DNA of 64,000 nucleotides from Peribacillus simplex (GTDB lineage Bacteria; Bacillota; Bacilli; Bacillales; DSM-1321). How positions within the stretch are numbered: position 1 is the stretch's first letter; the number at the start of each line of letters is the position of its first letter. The notes below the pieces were generated by a model that made no database searches, was not told the origin of the DNA, and saw only the letters and a list, made by a program, of their open reading frames with translations. Below, one piece after another: positions 15,376 through 18,856 of the stretch. Both the position numbers and the translations under genes were made by a program. Where the stretch lies: assembly GCF_900156045.1 (NCBI RefSeq), contig NZ_FTMX01000006.1, positions 248,001 to 312,000 on the forward strand. Direction: 5' to 3'.

Positions 15376-16293
15376 ATGACGCAACCTACTGTTCCAATCG
15401 TATCTGAAATTAGAAAGTTTAATCGGTTTTATACTAAAGTTCTTGGTTTGCTCAACCAGCAAGTGTACGATAGTCCTTTTTCTTTAACTGAAACAAGGAT
15501 TTTATTTGAAATTAATAGTACAAGTAATTGTACAGCAAAGTTTTTACAGGAAGAACTGGATTTAGATCGTGGGTATGTAAGTAGAATATTAAAACGTTAC
15601 GAAGAACTAGATATAATCTATAAGCAGAAATGGGAGGAAGATGGTCGTACATATTTTATTCATTTAACAGAAAAAGGGAAGATTATTTACCACGATTTGG
15701 AGACAAAAGCCGAACAGCAAGTCAAATTTCTTCTGAAAAATTTAGAAATGGAAAAACAACAAAACCTAATCGAATCAATGAGAACAATTGAAATGATTTT
15801 GTCGGAGTATATGGAACAAAATGAATCTGCCATTTCCATCCGAGATGAATATACAGCTGAAGACAAAGAACTTATTATTGAAAAGCAAAGAGCTTTTTAT
15901 AGTGATAATTATGGGTTTGATGAAACATTTCTAGATTATCTTCACGATTCCTTTGATGGGAAAATCAAAAAAATTTGGATTGCAGAAGATAACGGAAAAT
16001 TTGCAGGTTGTGTCGGTTTAGTCGAAGAAAATGAAGCGACAGCTATATTAAGGTGGTTCATTGTCGAGCCATCCATTCGCGGAAAAGGAGTAGGTACACA
16101 CTTAGTTCAAACGCTACTTAATTACTGCAAAGAACAACAATATGAACGAGTGTTTTTATGGACTGTGAGTAGTTTGCCAATAGCAAGACGATTATATGGA
16201 AAATTTGGATTTAAAATCACTGAAACAAAAGAGGAACAATTATTGTGGGGGCAAAGAATCGTGGAAGAACGGTGGGATTTAGAATTGAAGTAA
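15376..16293 (+). CDS. MarR-type HTH fused to GNAT N-acetyltransferase
   Basis: 305 residues from ATG with AAGGAGTTG upstream. Residues 5-145 are a MarR winged helix (SLTETRILFEI, LDLDRGYVSRILKRYEELDII, DGRTYFIHLTEKG). From about residue 155 a GNAT domain follows, with the acetyl-CoA loop RGKGVGTHLVQTLL and the C-terminal VSSLPIARRLYGKFGFKIT. This two-domain architecture is widespread in Firmicutes and Proteobacteria. The substrate is unknown, and ligand or acetyl-CoA control of DNA binding is a family-level guess. Confidence 0.92.
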   Translation: MTQPTVPIVSEIRKFNRFYTKVLGLLNQQVYDSPFSLTETRILFEINSTSNCTAKFLQEELDLDRGYVSRILKRYEELDIIYKQKWEEDGRTYFIHLTEKGKIIYHDLETKAEQQVKFLLKNLEMEKQQNLIESMRTIEMILSEYMEQNESAISIRDEYTAEDKELIIEKQRAFYSDNYGFDETFLDYLHDSFDGKIKKIWIAEDNGKFAGCVGLVEENEATAILRWFIVEPSIRGKGVGTHLVQTLLNYCKEQQYERVFLWTVSSLPIARRLYGKFGFKITETKEEQLLWGQRIVEERWDLELK

Positions 16294-16456: not shown

Positions 16457-16787
16457 TTATCCTAATCGGTCGCCTTTTTTAACCCTTTGTTGAGGTTCAA
16501 TTAGAACAGCACCTTGCTCTGAATAAGTCCCCATCACCAAAACTACTGAACTAAAATCAGCAACTTTAATAGGATGGAAATGGACCACTCCTATTACTTG
16601 CTTACCAACTAGATCATTTAAATCATAGCAATCTGTTATTTGAGCGCTCCTTTGTTTAATCCCTATTTCTTCTCTAAAATCAACCCATAATTTATAGGCT
16701 GGTTTTTCTTGCTTTAGGAAATTCTTCTGCTTTTGTAATTTCCTCAACACGCATATCTAATTTTTGAAAATCGTCGAAAGTTGCCAA
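16457..16787 (-). pseudogene. csaA: csaA-like tRNA-binding-domain chaperone gene, frameshifted
   Basis: Frame 1 from TTG at 16787 reads MATFDDFQKLDMRVEE and ITKAEEFPKARK, then hits a stop. Frame 2 continues KPAYKLWVDFREEIGIKQ, SAQITDCYDLNDLVGKQVIG, ending VKKGDRLG. Removing one base from the five-A run (T5 at 16703-16707 on the plus strand) joins them into 109 codons, close to the ~110-residue CsaA family length, with the family's EIGIKQRSAQIT core intact. It sits 18 bp behind the EamA gene. Either a recent homopolymer mutation or a sequencing error. CsaA is a tRNA-binding-fold protein with proposed secretion-chaperone activity. Confidence 0.85.
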
Positions 16788-16805
16788 TGTTATTCTTTTT
16801 TGTAT

Positions 16806-17708
16806 TTATTGAGATAATGATTGATTTTGTTCTTCTTGTCTATCTTTAATAACGATTAAGACTCCTATCAGAATCAAGAAAGATCCTATCCAAAAAGTGA
16901 TACTAATCGTTTCACCTAATATCAACCAACCTAATAATGTTCCAACAACGGGTTGGAAAAAAAAGAAAACTCCTCCACTAGATGCATTTAGCATTTGTAA
17001 ACCACGATTCCATAATAGAAATGCAATAGCTGTTGATATTACCCCTAAATATATTATTCCCCCAAAAATGGTAGGATTCATTAAATCATTTATATTTATT
17101 TTAGGTAATCTTGTTATAACTAAAGGAGTTAGAACAACAAAAGCAATTAAAGTAGCATAGGTATTTACAACAATTTGTGAATAGTCACCAGGCAAGAGTT
17201 TTATAAGTACTGACATTAAAGCCCATGTCAATGCAGCTATAATAAGGGAGACTCCTCCTAGCAAACTAGACATATCAATATCGTCAATTCCAACGATAAT
17301 AATGACACCGATAGTGGCTAAACTAACAGAAATAGCTTTCTTAAAAGTTAAACGTTCTTTAAGAATTATACTAGCAAACAAAACCATGAATGCAGGTGTT
17401 GTAGAAGTGATAATAGCCCCCATTTGTGCGGTAGAAAGCATTGTACCTGTTTCTTGAGTAACAATGGAAATGACGTATCCTATAATTGCAATGGCAATTA
17501 TAATTCCAAAATGCTGTCTTCTAATTCTCCAATTTTGTTTAGTCACAAATCCAATGATTACTAACGCAACAAGTGCTATAAGATAACGCATCCACACAAG
17601 TTCTAATGGTGGTATGACTGCCACTACTACTTTAACGACAACATACATACCTCCCCAAATACTTGAAGCTAATATTAAAAATAAAGAACCAATTAGTGTA
17701 TTTTTCAT
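16806..17708 (-). CDS. EamA/DMT-family membrane transporter
   Basis: 300 residues, ATG with GGAGGG 7 bp upstream. Ten predicted helices form two EamA halves: the N-terminal SSIWGGMYVVVKVVVAVIPPLELVWMRY and the second half beginning GGVSLIIAALTWALMSVLIKLLPG. The C-terminal half carries FFFQPVVGTLLGWLILGETI. Family members export amino acids, metabolites or drugs. Control is the interesting part: a translated leader with four mutually pairing segments precedes it, one of which covers its ribosome binding site. Confidence 0.9.
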   Translation of the reverse strand: MKNTLIGSLFLILASSIWGGMYVVVKVVVAVIPPLELVWMRYLIALVALVIIGFVTKQNWRIRRQHFGIIIAIAIIGYVISIVTQETGTMLSTAQMGAIITSTTPAFMVLFASIILKERLTFKKAISVSLATIGVIIIVGIDDIDMSSLLGGVSLIIAALTWALMSVLIKLLPGDYSQIVVNTYATLIAFVVLTPLVITRLPKININDLMNPTIFGGIIYLGVISTAIAFLLWNRGLQMLNASSGGVFFFFQPVVGTLLGWLILGETISITFWIGSFLILIGVLIVIKDRQEEQNQSLSQ

Positions 17709-17712
17709 GTTT

Positions 17713-17801
17713 GTACCCTCCGTATTTATTTTAGGCTTGTTATGCCTTAACGGAGAGAAATAGCTATTCTAAAGCTCTCTCCGTTAAGCGTGGGAGAGTA
17801 C
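17713..17801 (-). promoter_or_regulatory. Leader attenuator controlling the EamA gene (erm-like four-segment fold)
   Basis: In the mRNA sense: segment 1 GUACUCUCC (17801-17793, in the leader ORF), segment 2 CUUAACGGAGAGA (17788-17776), segment 3 UCUCUCCGUUAAG (17758-17746), segment 4 ACGGAGGGUAC (17723-17713, the EamA Shine-Dalgarno). 2:3 is a perfect 13-bp stem. 1:2 pairs CUCUCC/GGAGAG, 3:4 pairs CUCCGU/ACGGAG, and 1 can also pair directly with 4 over 9 bp including one G-U. Ribosome occupancy of segment 1 would favour 2:3 and free the SD. Confidence 0.65.
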
Positions 17802-17840
17802 TGTTGGTACATCGTTTTCAAATAATGGAGTCCAAAACAT
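17784..17840 (-). CDS. 18-aa leader peptide upstream of the EamA gene
   Basis: ATG preceded by GAGGTGAC at about 5-bp spacing encodes MFWTPLFENDVPTVLSHA and stops with TAA lying inside the 5' arm of the downstream 13-bp stem. Its Val-Leu-Ser codons are the segment able to mask the EamA RBS. Position, length and overlap with the alternative stems match ribosome-stalling leader peptides. Confidence 0.6.
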   Translation of the reverse strand: MFWTPLFENDVPTVLSHA

Positions 17841-17941
17841 CTTAGTCACCTCGTTACCAAAATTTCATAATTTTTTTAAGTGTAACAAAAATTAATATTG
17901 ATGAACACCTTATTTTTTTCGGATTCATAACTAAAATATTG

Positions 17942-17962
17942 TTATTAACCTAGTGTTAATAA
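17942..17962. promoter_or_regulatory. Perfect 8-bp inverted repeat
   Basis: TTATTAAC-ctagt-GTTAATAA, between the regulator remnant and the EamA leader; candidate operator or remnant of one. Confidence 0.35.
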
Positions 17963-17976
17963 AAGGGTAAGATACT

Positions 17977-18096
17977 TTATTTGGTAAAATCAATTCCGTA
18001 TTTCTTCATTTTTTTATAAAGAGTAGCTCTAGACATTCCTAATTCTTTTGCAGTGATGCTTTTATTTCTATATGTTTTTTCAAGAGTTTGCCAAGG
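17977..18096 (-). pseudogene. C-terminal remnant of a Fis-type HTH (sigma-54 activator-like) gene
   Basis: About 39 codons to a TAA read WQTLEKTYRNKSITAKELG then MSRATLYKKMKKYGIDFTK. This is the HTH_8 recognition end of an enhancer-binding protein of RocR type. No other domain remains upstream. Confidence 0.6.
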
Positions 18097-18230
18097 GAAC
18101 AATGAACATATATATGAAAAATTATTTGAAAGGATATACTAAGATGAGTGCGATGATATTTAACCTTAATTGGGGACATTTTCGCTACCATCGGAGGTTC
18201 ATTAACAAAGCGTAGTTAGAGGAGGTTAAA

Positions 18231-18785
18231 ATGGAGAAGCAGGCTGTTTTATTTCATTCATTAGAGGGTGAAAAAATCTACTTCAAAGCACTAAGGATAG
18301 AGGATGTTCAAGAGATACATCATTATGCGTCAGATCAAGAGGTTTCACGATTTATTGGCTGGAATTTGATGAGTACTTTTGAGGAAACTCGTCAGTTCAT
18401 TGAAATAATGTTAAAACGTGAGTCGGCAGGAACTCATTTATATTCCTCCATTGTTGAAAAATTAACTCAAGCAATTATAGGAACAGCCATAATTTTTAAT
18501 TTTGACCAAGAAGCAAACCAAGCTGAAATTGGTTATGTGTTGCATAAACATCATTGGGATAAGGGGTATGGAACAGAGATTGTTGCATTGATAAGTGATT
18601 TTGCATTTAAATCACTTAATCTTCATAAGCTCCATGCTATGGTAGTGCATGCCAATATTGGCTCTGCACGGATACTTGAAAAGAACAGGTATGAGTTAGA
18701 AGGACGATTAAAAGACCACTATTTTATAGAGGATAAGTATTATGATGCATTACTTTTCGGCAAAATTACTAACTTGGAAACTTAG
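18231..18785 (+). CDS. GNAT N-acetyltransferase, RimJ/RimL-like
   Basis: 184 residues from ATG behind AGAGGAGG. It has the RimJ/L-type features GEKIYFKALRIEDVQEIHHYASDQEVSRFIGW at the start, AEIGYVLHKHHWDKGYGTEIV as the acetyl-CoA-binding motif, LHKLHAMVVHANIGSARILEKNRYELEGRLKDHYFIEDKYYDALLFGKI at the end. Enzymes of this kind acetylate ribosomal protein N-termini or small amines. Target unknown. Confidence 0.9.
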   Translation: MEKQAVLFHSLEGEKIYFKALRIEDVQEIHHYASDQEVSRFIGWNLMSTFEETRQFIEIMLKRESAGTHLYSSIVEKLTQAIIGTAIIFNFDQEANQAEIGYVLHKHHWDKGYGTEIVALISDFAFKSLNLHKLHAMVVHANIGSARILEKNRYELEGRLKDHYFIEDKYYDALLFGKITNLET

Positions 18786-18856
18786 CGTTCTTGTACAGAT
18801 AAAATGAAGAGGTTTGTTGACGATAATTTCAATAAAATATAATCCCTTCTTATTCA

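Follow-up and report, generated by a model that had tools for sequence, protein, structure and literature searches.

The EamA/DMT-family exporter gene in the 64,000-nucleotide stretch of Peribacillus simplex DNA analysed here (the window) is very probably controlled by a translational attenuator with the logic of erm and cat genes, in which a short upstream leader carrying the motif FExDVP is the arrest-peptide candidate; the stall, the ligand and export are inferred. The ermC/cat type of control had been put forward in the original prediction, and it was supported by the comparison of leaders, helices and predicted opening positions described below. The evidence for the conservation and position of the leader peptide, the alternative helices and the predicted opening position comes from sequence comparison and computed folding. 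The features concerned, all on the minus strand, are the following:

17846-17852 (-): RBS of the leader, GAGGTGA, ending 5 nt before the ATG; anti-SD duplex of -7.2 kcal/mol.
17784-17840 (-): leader ORF of 18 codons, MFWTPLFENDVPTVLSHA followed by a stop, with ATG at 17840 and TAA at 17786-17784.
Codons 5-12 of the leader (-): conserved core PLFENDVP, found in 68 of the 80 orthologs kept (the best 80 of 466 relatives).
17805-17810 (-): codons Val11-Pro12, predicted P-site and A-site of the stalled ribosome (computed SD opening; DVP in 80 of 80 orthologs).
17793-17801 (-): segment 1, GUACUCUCC, with segment 4 (exporter SD) or segment 2 as partner (MFE structure).
17775-17788 (-): segment 2, CUUAACGGAGAGAG, overlapping the leader stop codon, with segment 3 as partner.
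17746-17759 (-): segment 3, UUCUCUCCGUUAAG, with segment 2 (ON) or segment 4 (OFF) as partner.
17713-17723 (-): segment 4, ACGGAGGGUAC, containing the exporter Shine-Dalgarno GGAGGG (sequence and MFE).
17716-17721 (-): exporter Shine-Dalgarno (SD), GGAGGG.
16806-17708 (-): EamA/DMT-family exporter of 300 aa, the gene that the switch would regulate (Pfam EamA 157.8 bits, cut-off 28.2, two stretches).
16457-16750 (-): csaA-like gene behind the exporter, with its frame broken near the start; a recurrent neighbour outside the switch.

Two elements of the original prediction, an 18-aa leader with its own RBS (MFWTPLFENDVPTVLSHA and GAGGTGA) and a segment 4 that is the GGAGGG Shine-Dalgarno of the transporter (17721-17716), could be read directly from the sequence. 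Segment 1, GUACUCUCC, coincides with codons Val14-Ser16 of the window leader, and its partner within segment 4 is GGAGGGUAC (17721-17713); the exporter start at 17708 lies 75 nt past the leader stop. The alternative pairing of segments that had been anticipated was recovered, with helices 1:4, 2:3 and 3:4 all possible. The MFE of region 17860-17690 is -44.8 kcal/mol, with helix 1:4 formed and 2:3 nested within it, in agreement with the claim that segment 1 can mask the SD directly. In 200 dinucleotide shuffles the mean was -28.3 kcal/mol (sd 3.7), which places the window 4.4 sd below them (z -4.4), and no shuffle was as low. The stem between segments 2 and 3, described beforehand as a perfect 13-bp helix, does have 13 Watson-Crick pairs, but a terminal G-U brings the possible contiguous pairs to 14, and the MFE structure uses 11 of them contiguously plus three inner ones. 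No terminator-like site was found at 16500-18500 of the window, so that control by the attenuator would be translational; among 81 loci (the window and the 80 orthologs described below), a T5+ run between leader and gene was present in just 2. A chance fold, or a leader that merely supplies ribosomes to the exporter by coupling without any switching, is hardly credible. The leader and the exporter are indeed close (gap of 37-81 nt, median 69), but this gap is wide compared with ordinary stop-start coupling, the SD is predicted to be closed with a ribosome near the stop codon, and the fold lies far from the shuffles.

Conservation of the leader, whose absence had been set beforehand as a refutation test, was assessed in the best 80 of 466 relatives, which were found with the exporter alignment alone, without use of the leader; because only these 80 were kept, close orthologs (65-91% identity) are over-represented among them. 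All 80 had a short frame upstream containing (F/Y)-E-x-D-V-P, with FENDVP in 75 and PLFENDVP in 68, and with FELDVP, FEIDVP, FEHDVP and YENDVP as variants. Leader-bearing genera within these best 80 of 466 include Bacillus, Peribacillus, Neobacillus, Paenibacillus, Sporosarcina, Psychrobacillus, Lysinibacillus, Brevibacillus, Aneurinibacillus, Gracilibacillus and Shouchella, among others. Two types of tail were distinguished, one in leaders of about 18 aa ending, for example, in VALSRS or VALFCS, and the other in leaders of 16-17 aa ending, for example, in VVILP; the VILP type and MNRRLFENDVPTLLS are two leaders that differ from that of the window. Across the 81 leaders, window included, the entropy of the eight core codons was 0-0.32 bits at position 2, 0-0.43 bits at position 1 (Leu reaching 0.89 from TTA/CTA) and 0.39-1.27 bits at position 3. 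Since codon variation falls mainly on position 3, the core amino acids are kept, whereas past Pro the codons vary at all three positions and the residues drift. The best-scoring starts were ATG in 74 loci, TTG in 5 and GTG in 2, and the median SD energy of the leaders was -7.1 versus -4.2 for shuffled stretches, a comparison biased towards the real leaders because several starts were tried for each of them and only one for the shuffles. Deviating cases were also found: the leader of L036 is frameshifted and longer, and upstream of the EamA gene of L008 (minus strand) a decayed leader ending in LFENDVH, with a GGAGTG Shine-Dalgarno, appears by eye to be a natural Pro-less variant. No leader was found in two relatives with 45-47% identity (L029 and L030), nor within 280 nt upstream of a relative on a Selenomonas plasmid (47% identity).

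Beyond close orthologs, an exporter profile run against 398 Bacilli genomes located 145 places in 136 genomes, nine of which had two, and 114 of these loci were read. An E-x-D-x-P leader preceded the exporter in 82 of the 114, from 21 families, compared with 0 of 114 when these stretches were read as their reverse complement and 0, 0, 1, 2 and 1 in five base shuffles. E.D.P was the criterion of this survey, and its invariance among the 82 leaders is therefore by definition; the residue before Glu was F in 72, x was N in 38 and C in 21 (others in the remainder), the residue before Pro was V in 67, Q in 11, H in 2 and T in 2, and the later residues were mixed. The 32 surveyed loci without a leader include 7 of family f48 and 6 directly behind csaA. 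Regarding the 31 places outside the 114, 13 were known otherwise, 11 with a leader and 2 without (L029 and L030), the former not being independent since they came from leader-pattern matches; the other 18 were mostly of the f48 family, all 7 read members of which lack the leader, and gene fragments.

Searches for the motif itself pointed to the same kind of gene. The LFENDVP codon pattern gave 31 matches in 29 of the 398 Bacilli genomes (reversed pattern, 3), and all 30 loci read were the end of a short frame before a DMT gene. Twenty-nine of them precede an exporter of the window type, with a broken exporter frame in L136. At the remaining one, L122, this leader and RNA layout precede a DMT protein that is clearly another one (best NCBIfam match TIGR00950, 152.9 bits, below cut-off), and the switch looks as though it had been transferred to a different exporter. 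Applied to 397 genomes of the order, the pattern gave 28 matches in 26 genomes (reversed pattern, 5), 24 of them leaders, with 23 before the exporter (frame broken in L159) and one at a contig end (L156), while L146, L147, L153 and L166 look like chance. Among 338 genomes, 16 contained FECDVP, with 17 matches in all (reversed control, 3); of these matches 14 stand before the exporter; the other three were discarded as lying beside unrelated frames. The next gene at motif matches was taken as the first frame of more than 100 aa, which in some rows is an overlapping wrong frame; an open exporter frame was confirmed for L137 and L149, and in L291, L292 and L299 the exporter was placed by the profile survey. 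Within the genomes sampled, and as far as sequence alone can tell, the motif accompanies DMT exporters and little else.

The helices were compared in two groups of relatives aligned apart, and the compensatory changes sought as a check of the original prediction were found in helix 1:2 of both. In the 24 VILP-type sequences, 92.7% of the cells of helices 1:2 and 3:4 taken together are paired, against 42-65% when slid, and there are 13 double-change cells versus 4.8 in shuffles, all in helix 1:2, with 3:4 nearly invariant; the number of pairs with a double change (4) is unremarkable, 156 of 500 shuffles being as high. On a mixed alignment of class II, RNAalifold detected helix 3:4 alone, since the sequences brought together differ in their 1:2 architecture, and a 38-sequence subset of this other class (37 distinct) was then aligned apart. 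In this subset 93.7% of cells are paired, against 45-52% when slid, with 9 double-change cells versus 3.0 in shuffles, helix 1:2 accounting for 8; the count of further pair types is unremarkable (210 of 500 shuffles). Helix 3:4 is 99% paired in both groups. Helix 2:3 pairs in 94.5% of cells versus 42-60% when slid, with no covariation signal beyond shuffles.

The effect of a stalled ribosome was computed by parking it codon by codon on the leader, masking the RNA up to +15 (counted from the first nucleotide of the P-site codon), folding the RNA downstream and taking the mean unpaired probability of the SD bases as readout. Over the 81 loci, with Pro as position 0 by construction and two VPP leaders one residue off, the mean was 0.07 in free RNA, 0.10 three codons before Pro, 0.21 two before, 0.36 with Val and 0.34 with Pro in the P-site, and 0.25, 0.20, 0.14 and then 0.04 at the codons after Pro. 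Shuffling the stretch from Pro to the SD gave a flat 0.22-0.24 at every position, and the opening maximum fell on Val or Pro in 54 of 81 real versus 29 of 243 shuffled cases. The free-RNA median was 0.01 in both leader classes, the VILP-type leaders (n=24) peaking at Val and the others (n=57) at Pro, both at 0.39. Thus, the site at which the RNA is predicted to open largely coincides with the end of peptide conservation. The folding with and without a ribosome on the leader that had been suggested as a check gave, in computation, an SD closed in free RNA and partly opened, chiefly at Val/Pro.

In the window, the values were 0.00 in free RNA, 0.43 at Val11, 0.63 at Pro12, 0.71 and 0.91 (Val14) at the next two codons, 0.35 past Val14 and then 0.01, the SD being closed with a ribosome near the stop codon. 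Across relatives, the predicted stall does not fall on the Val-Leu-Ser codons of segment 1 but a few codons before them, on Val11/Pro12, where the front of the ribosome would lie over segment 1; in the window alone the opening rises further, to Val14. In 19 divergent loci, nine of them near-copies from one genus, the post-leader RNA is by eye strongly unlike that of the window; the free RNA gave 0.05, and positions -2, -1 (Val), 0 and +1 gave 0.31, 0.53, 0.30 and 0.11. No clear opening peak was seen in L122 and L137, and in L140 the peak comes one codon later. The 82 survey loci gave 0.12 in free RNA and 0.32, 0.43, 0.36 and 0.28 at -2, -1, 0 and +1, and among the 79 with any opening above 0.15 the maximum was on Val or Pro in 44. 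The three sets (81, 19 and 82 loci) overlap in part, and the computed opening is partial (means of 0.34-0.53).

These results bear on two other explanations of the leader. The short ORF could encode a functional small peptide (a signal, a toxin or an exported substrate) instead of a regulator, a view that conservation at the peptide level would allow, but the residues flanking the core drift at either end, the codons of the tail serve at the same time as RNA segments, and the place of opening follows the motif across differing RNAs, which makes it very improbable. Alternatively, a shortage of prolyl-tRNA might hold the ribosome at the conserved Pro codon, so that starvation would open the exporter. 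Pro is present in all of the best 80 of 466 relatives and occupies the A-site at the predicted opening; it is, however, a single codon, the conserved residues before it, with their freer third positions, are neither needed nor explained by starvation, the first Pro of PLFENDVP sits where no opening is predicted, and an exporter would be an odd answer to such a shortage. This explanation is therefore considered improbable, and the class of amino-acid starvation attenuators was rejected, as the leader peptides have no run of codons for a regulating amino acid. The original proposal had been induction either by a translation inhibitor or by shortage of an amino acid; the second half is the weaker, since what has been conserved is the peptide, not a run of codons, and a ribosome-acting small molecule is the likelier inducer.

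In the attenuator that we favour, uninduced ribosomes would traverse the 18-codon leader and the RNA would fold with the exporter Shine-Dalgarno paired, leaving the exporter hardly translated. The OFF fold is predicted to be 1:4 around 2:3 in the window, and 1:2 plus 3:4 in the two groups of 24 and 38 relatives. The trigger would be a specific state of the ribosome encountered by the nascent ...F-E-x-D-V, most likely the presence of a small molecule in the peptidyl transferase centre or the upper exit tunnel. The ribosome would then halt with Val (or Pro) in the P-site and cover segment 1 with its leading edge, so that segment 2 could pair with segment 3 and the Shine-Dalgarno would be freed. 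The exporter made as a consequence would presumably remove the inducing molecule or a relative of it. The stall, its dependence on a ligand, the direction of export and the substrate are inferred, and a role of the exporter as an antibiotic pump is likewise an inference. A ligand-free variant, in which FExDVP is intrinsically slow and any general slowing of translation opens the exporter, seems unlikely, although it retains more support than the other alternatives. A review on context-specific inhibitors lists +X+ and "the general XPX motif" for erythromycin (PMC13410324), and the E. coli leader ToiL is reported to sense several antibiotic classes (PMC12121999). The opening predicted here is restricted to a few codons, unlike the whole-leader response described for ToiL (PMC12121999), and a fixed six-residue motif suggests, by inference, a specific contact of the nascent chain. 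The same erythromycin motifs mean that a stop around Val-Pro would fit a tunnel-binding drug, without proving it (PMC13410324).

For the exporter, no NCBIfam equivalog scored above cut-off. A profile search of solved structures returned no relative at E 0.01. When the surroundings of 81 loci were compared, no cluster of neighbours covered more than a few, csaA excepted. The csaA-like gene was found within the flanks in 10 of the 80 ortholog loci and in the window, in all of them behind the exporter, some copies being fragments or having broken frames. The window copy has its start region in another frame and matches an intact relative in two frames, with 72.5% over 91 aa and 73.3% over 30 aa; intact copies are present in relatives. 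csaA stands before the exporter on a Priestia plasmid and in L152, and leaderless exporters lie directly behind csaA in six survey loci (L235, L272, L273, L275, L276 and L279). This recurrence in several orders suggests a functional link of the exporter with a tRNA-binding-type protein, and, if leader and exporter form a sense-and-expel module, would hint that the compound acts on translation. The leader-exporter pair is also plasmid-borne in Priestia, Niallia and Bacillus badius. As the leader is kept while the surroundings change, the pair looks like a mobile and self-contained unit, which is an inference. Two further observations were made in the window. A short frame at about 18100-17978 (-), ending in ...AKELGMSRATLYKKMKKYGIDFTK, resembles by eye a C-terminal HTH remnant of a sigma-54-type activator, and no ORF of at least 60 aa on the minus strand covers this stretch. 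At 15376-16293 (+), a MarR-type regulator is fused to a GNAT acetyltransferase.

As a candidate arrest peptide FExDVP is widespread, its stall codon is predicted, and the target genes found so far are of one kind, which raises the question of which molecule stops the ribosome at this motif. Finding that molecule would reveal the inducer and, with it, what is likely to be the substrate of a large family of exporters whose function is unknown; a route of intrinsic resistance in soil bacilli might also come to light. Being only six residues long and close to the peptidyl transferase centre, the motif would also offer a compact model of how a nascent chain and a small molecule together stop the ribosome. 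That FExDVP is a new ligand-dependent class of arrest peptide, sensing a ribosome-acting natural compound or metabolite yet to be identified and forming with its exporter a Bacilli-wide sense-and-expel module, is about as likely as not.

Database searches did not assign the element to a known family: Rfam gave no match up to E 1 at 16700-18800 nor up to E 0.1 in 10 divergent leader regions, and the leader read as 21 aa had no Pfam or NCBIfam match up to E 10. A literature search, made mainly on titles and the openings of abstracts and with subscription journals sparse, returned no description of an FExDVP leader. The logic is known, yet the arrest-peptide candidate and the target class are without a description in the literature searched. 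Four features expected of an erm/cat-type attenuator are present, ligand-dependent arrest in the leader being inferred: a leader ORF with its own RBS in cis and just upstream (the best start being picked per locus, which favours a good score), a downstream SD sequestered by pairing as long as the RNA is free (computed), a defined leader position that frees it (computed only, with a shuffle control, the opening being partial), and no intrinsic terminator from leader to gene (in the window; T5+ in 2 of 81 loci). Membership of the ErmCL/ErmBL/ErmDL family was rejected, since the core is FExDVP and the gene EamA, with no erm motif or rRNA methyltransferase.

In ermC and ermB, induction is by macrolides, and the masked SD becomes accessible once a ribosome has stalled at one codon, about ten residues into the leader. 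In the cat-86/catA leaders the drug is chloramphenicol, and the stalled leader ribosome opens the SD of an acetyltransferase gene. In Bacillus, leaders such as those of BmrB-BmrCD and VmlR stand before drug transporter or resistance genes. With ermC/ermB the window element shares a short leader with its own RBS, alternative helices and a masked downstream SD, and with cat-86/catA the same translational attenuation, with a different leader peptide and target. The ErmC attenuation scheme is described in PMC10219788, and the ErmCL arrest motif is quoted as MGIFSIFVIS (PMC13410324). Compared with ErmCL and ErmBL, the arrest motif is another one, and the target is a DMT exporter instead of an rRNA methyltransferase.

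ToiL is an 8-codon uORF of E. coli topAI that pairs with the downstream RBS, which stalled ribosomes free, and stalls anywhere along the leader are proposed to count (PMC12121999). Pairing of uORF RNA with a downstream RBS, freed by stalled ribosomes, is common to both systems, whereas ToiL controls a toxin-antitoxin operon and the window-type leader is predicted to open the RBS at a few codons only (PMC12121999). For BmrB-BmrCD (PMC4191407) and VmlR (PMC9226507) of B. subtilis, the titles point to transcription attenuation. The likeness is that of a Bacillus leader ahead of a drug transporter or resistance gene, whereas no terminator was seen at the window exporter. In TnaC and SpeFL, transport or catabolism is switched on by ribosomes that stall through the joint action of a nascent peptide and a small metabolite. 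Their nascent chains are longer than the approximately 10-12 residues that would be present at the predicted FExDVP stall, MNRRLFENDVP being among the shortest, and this length is in the range of the drug-dependent erm leaders.
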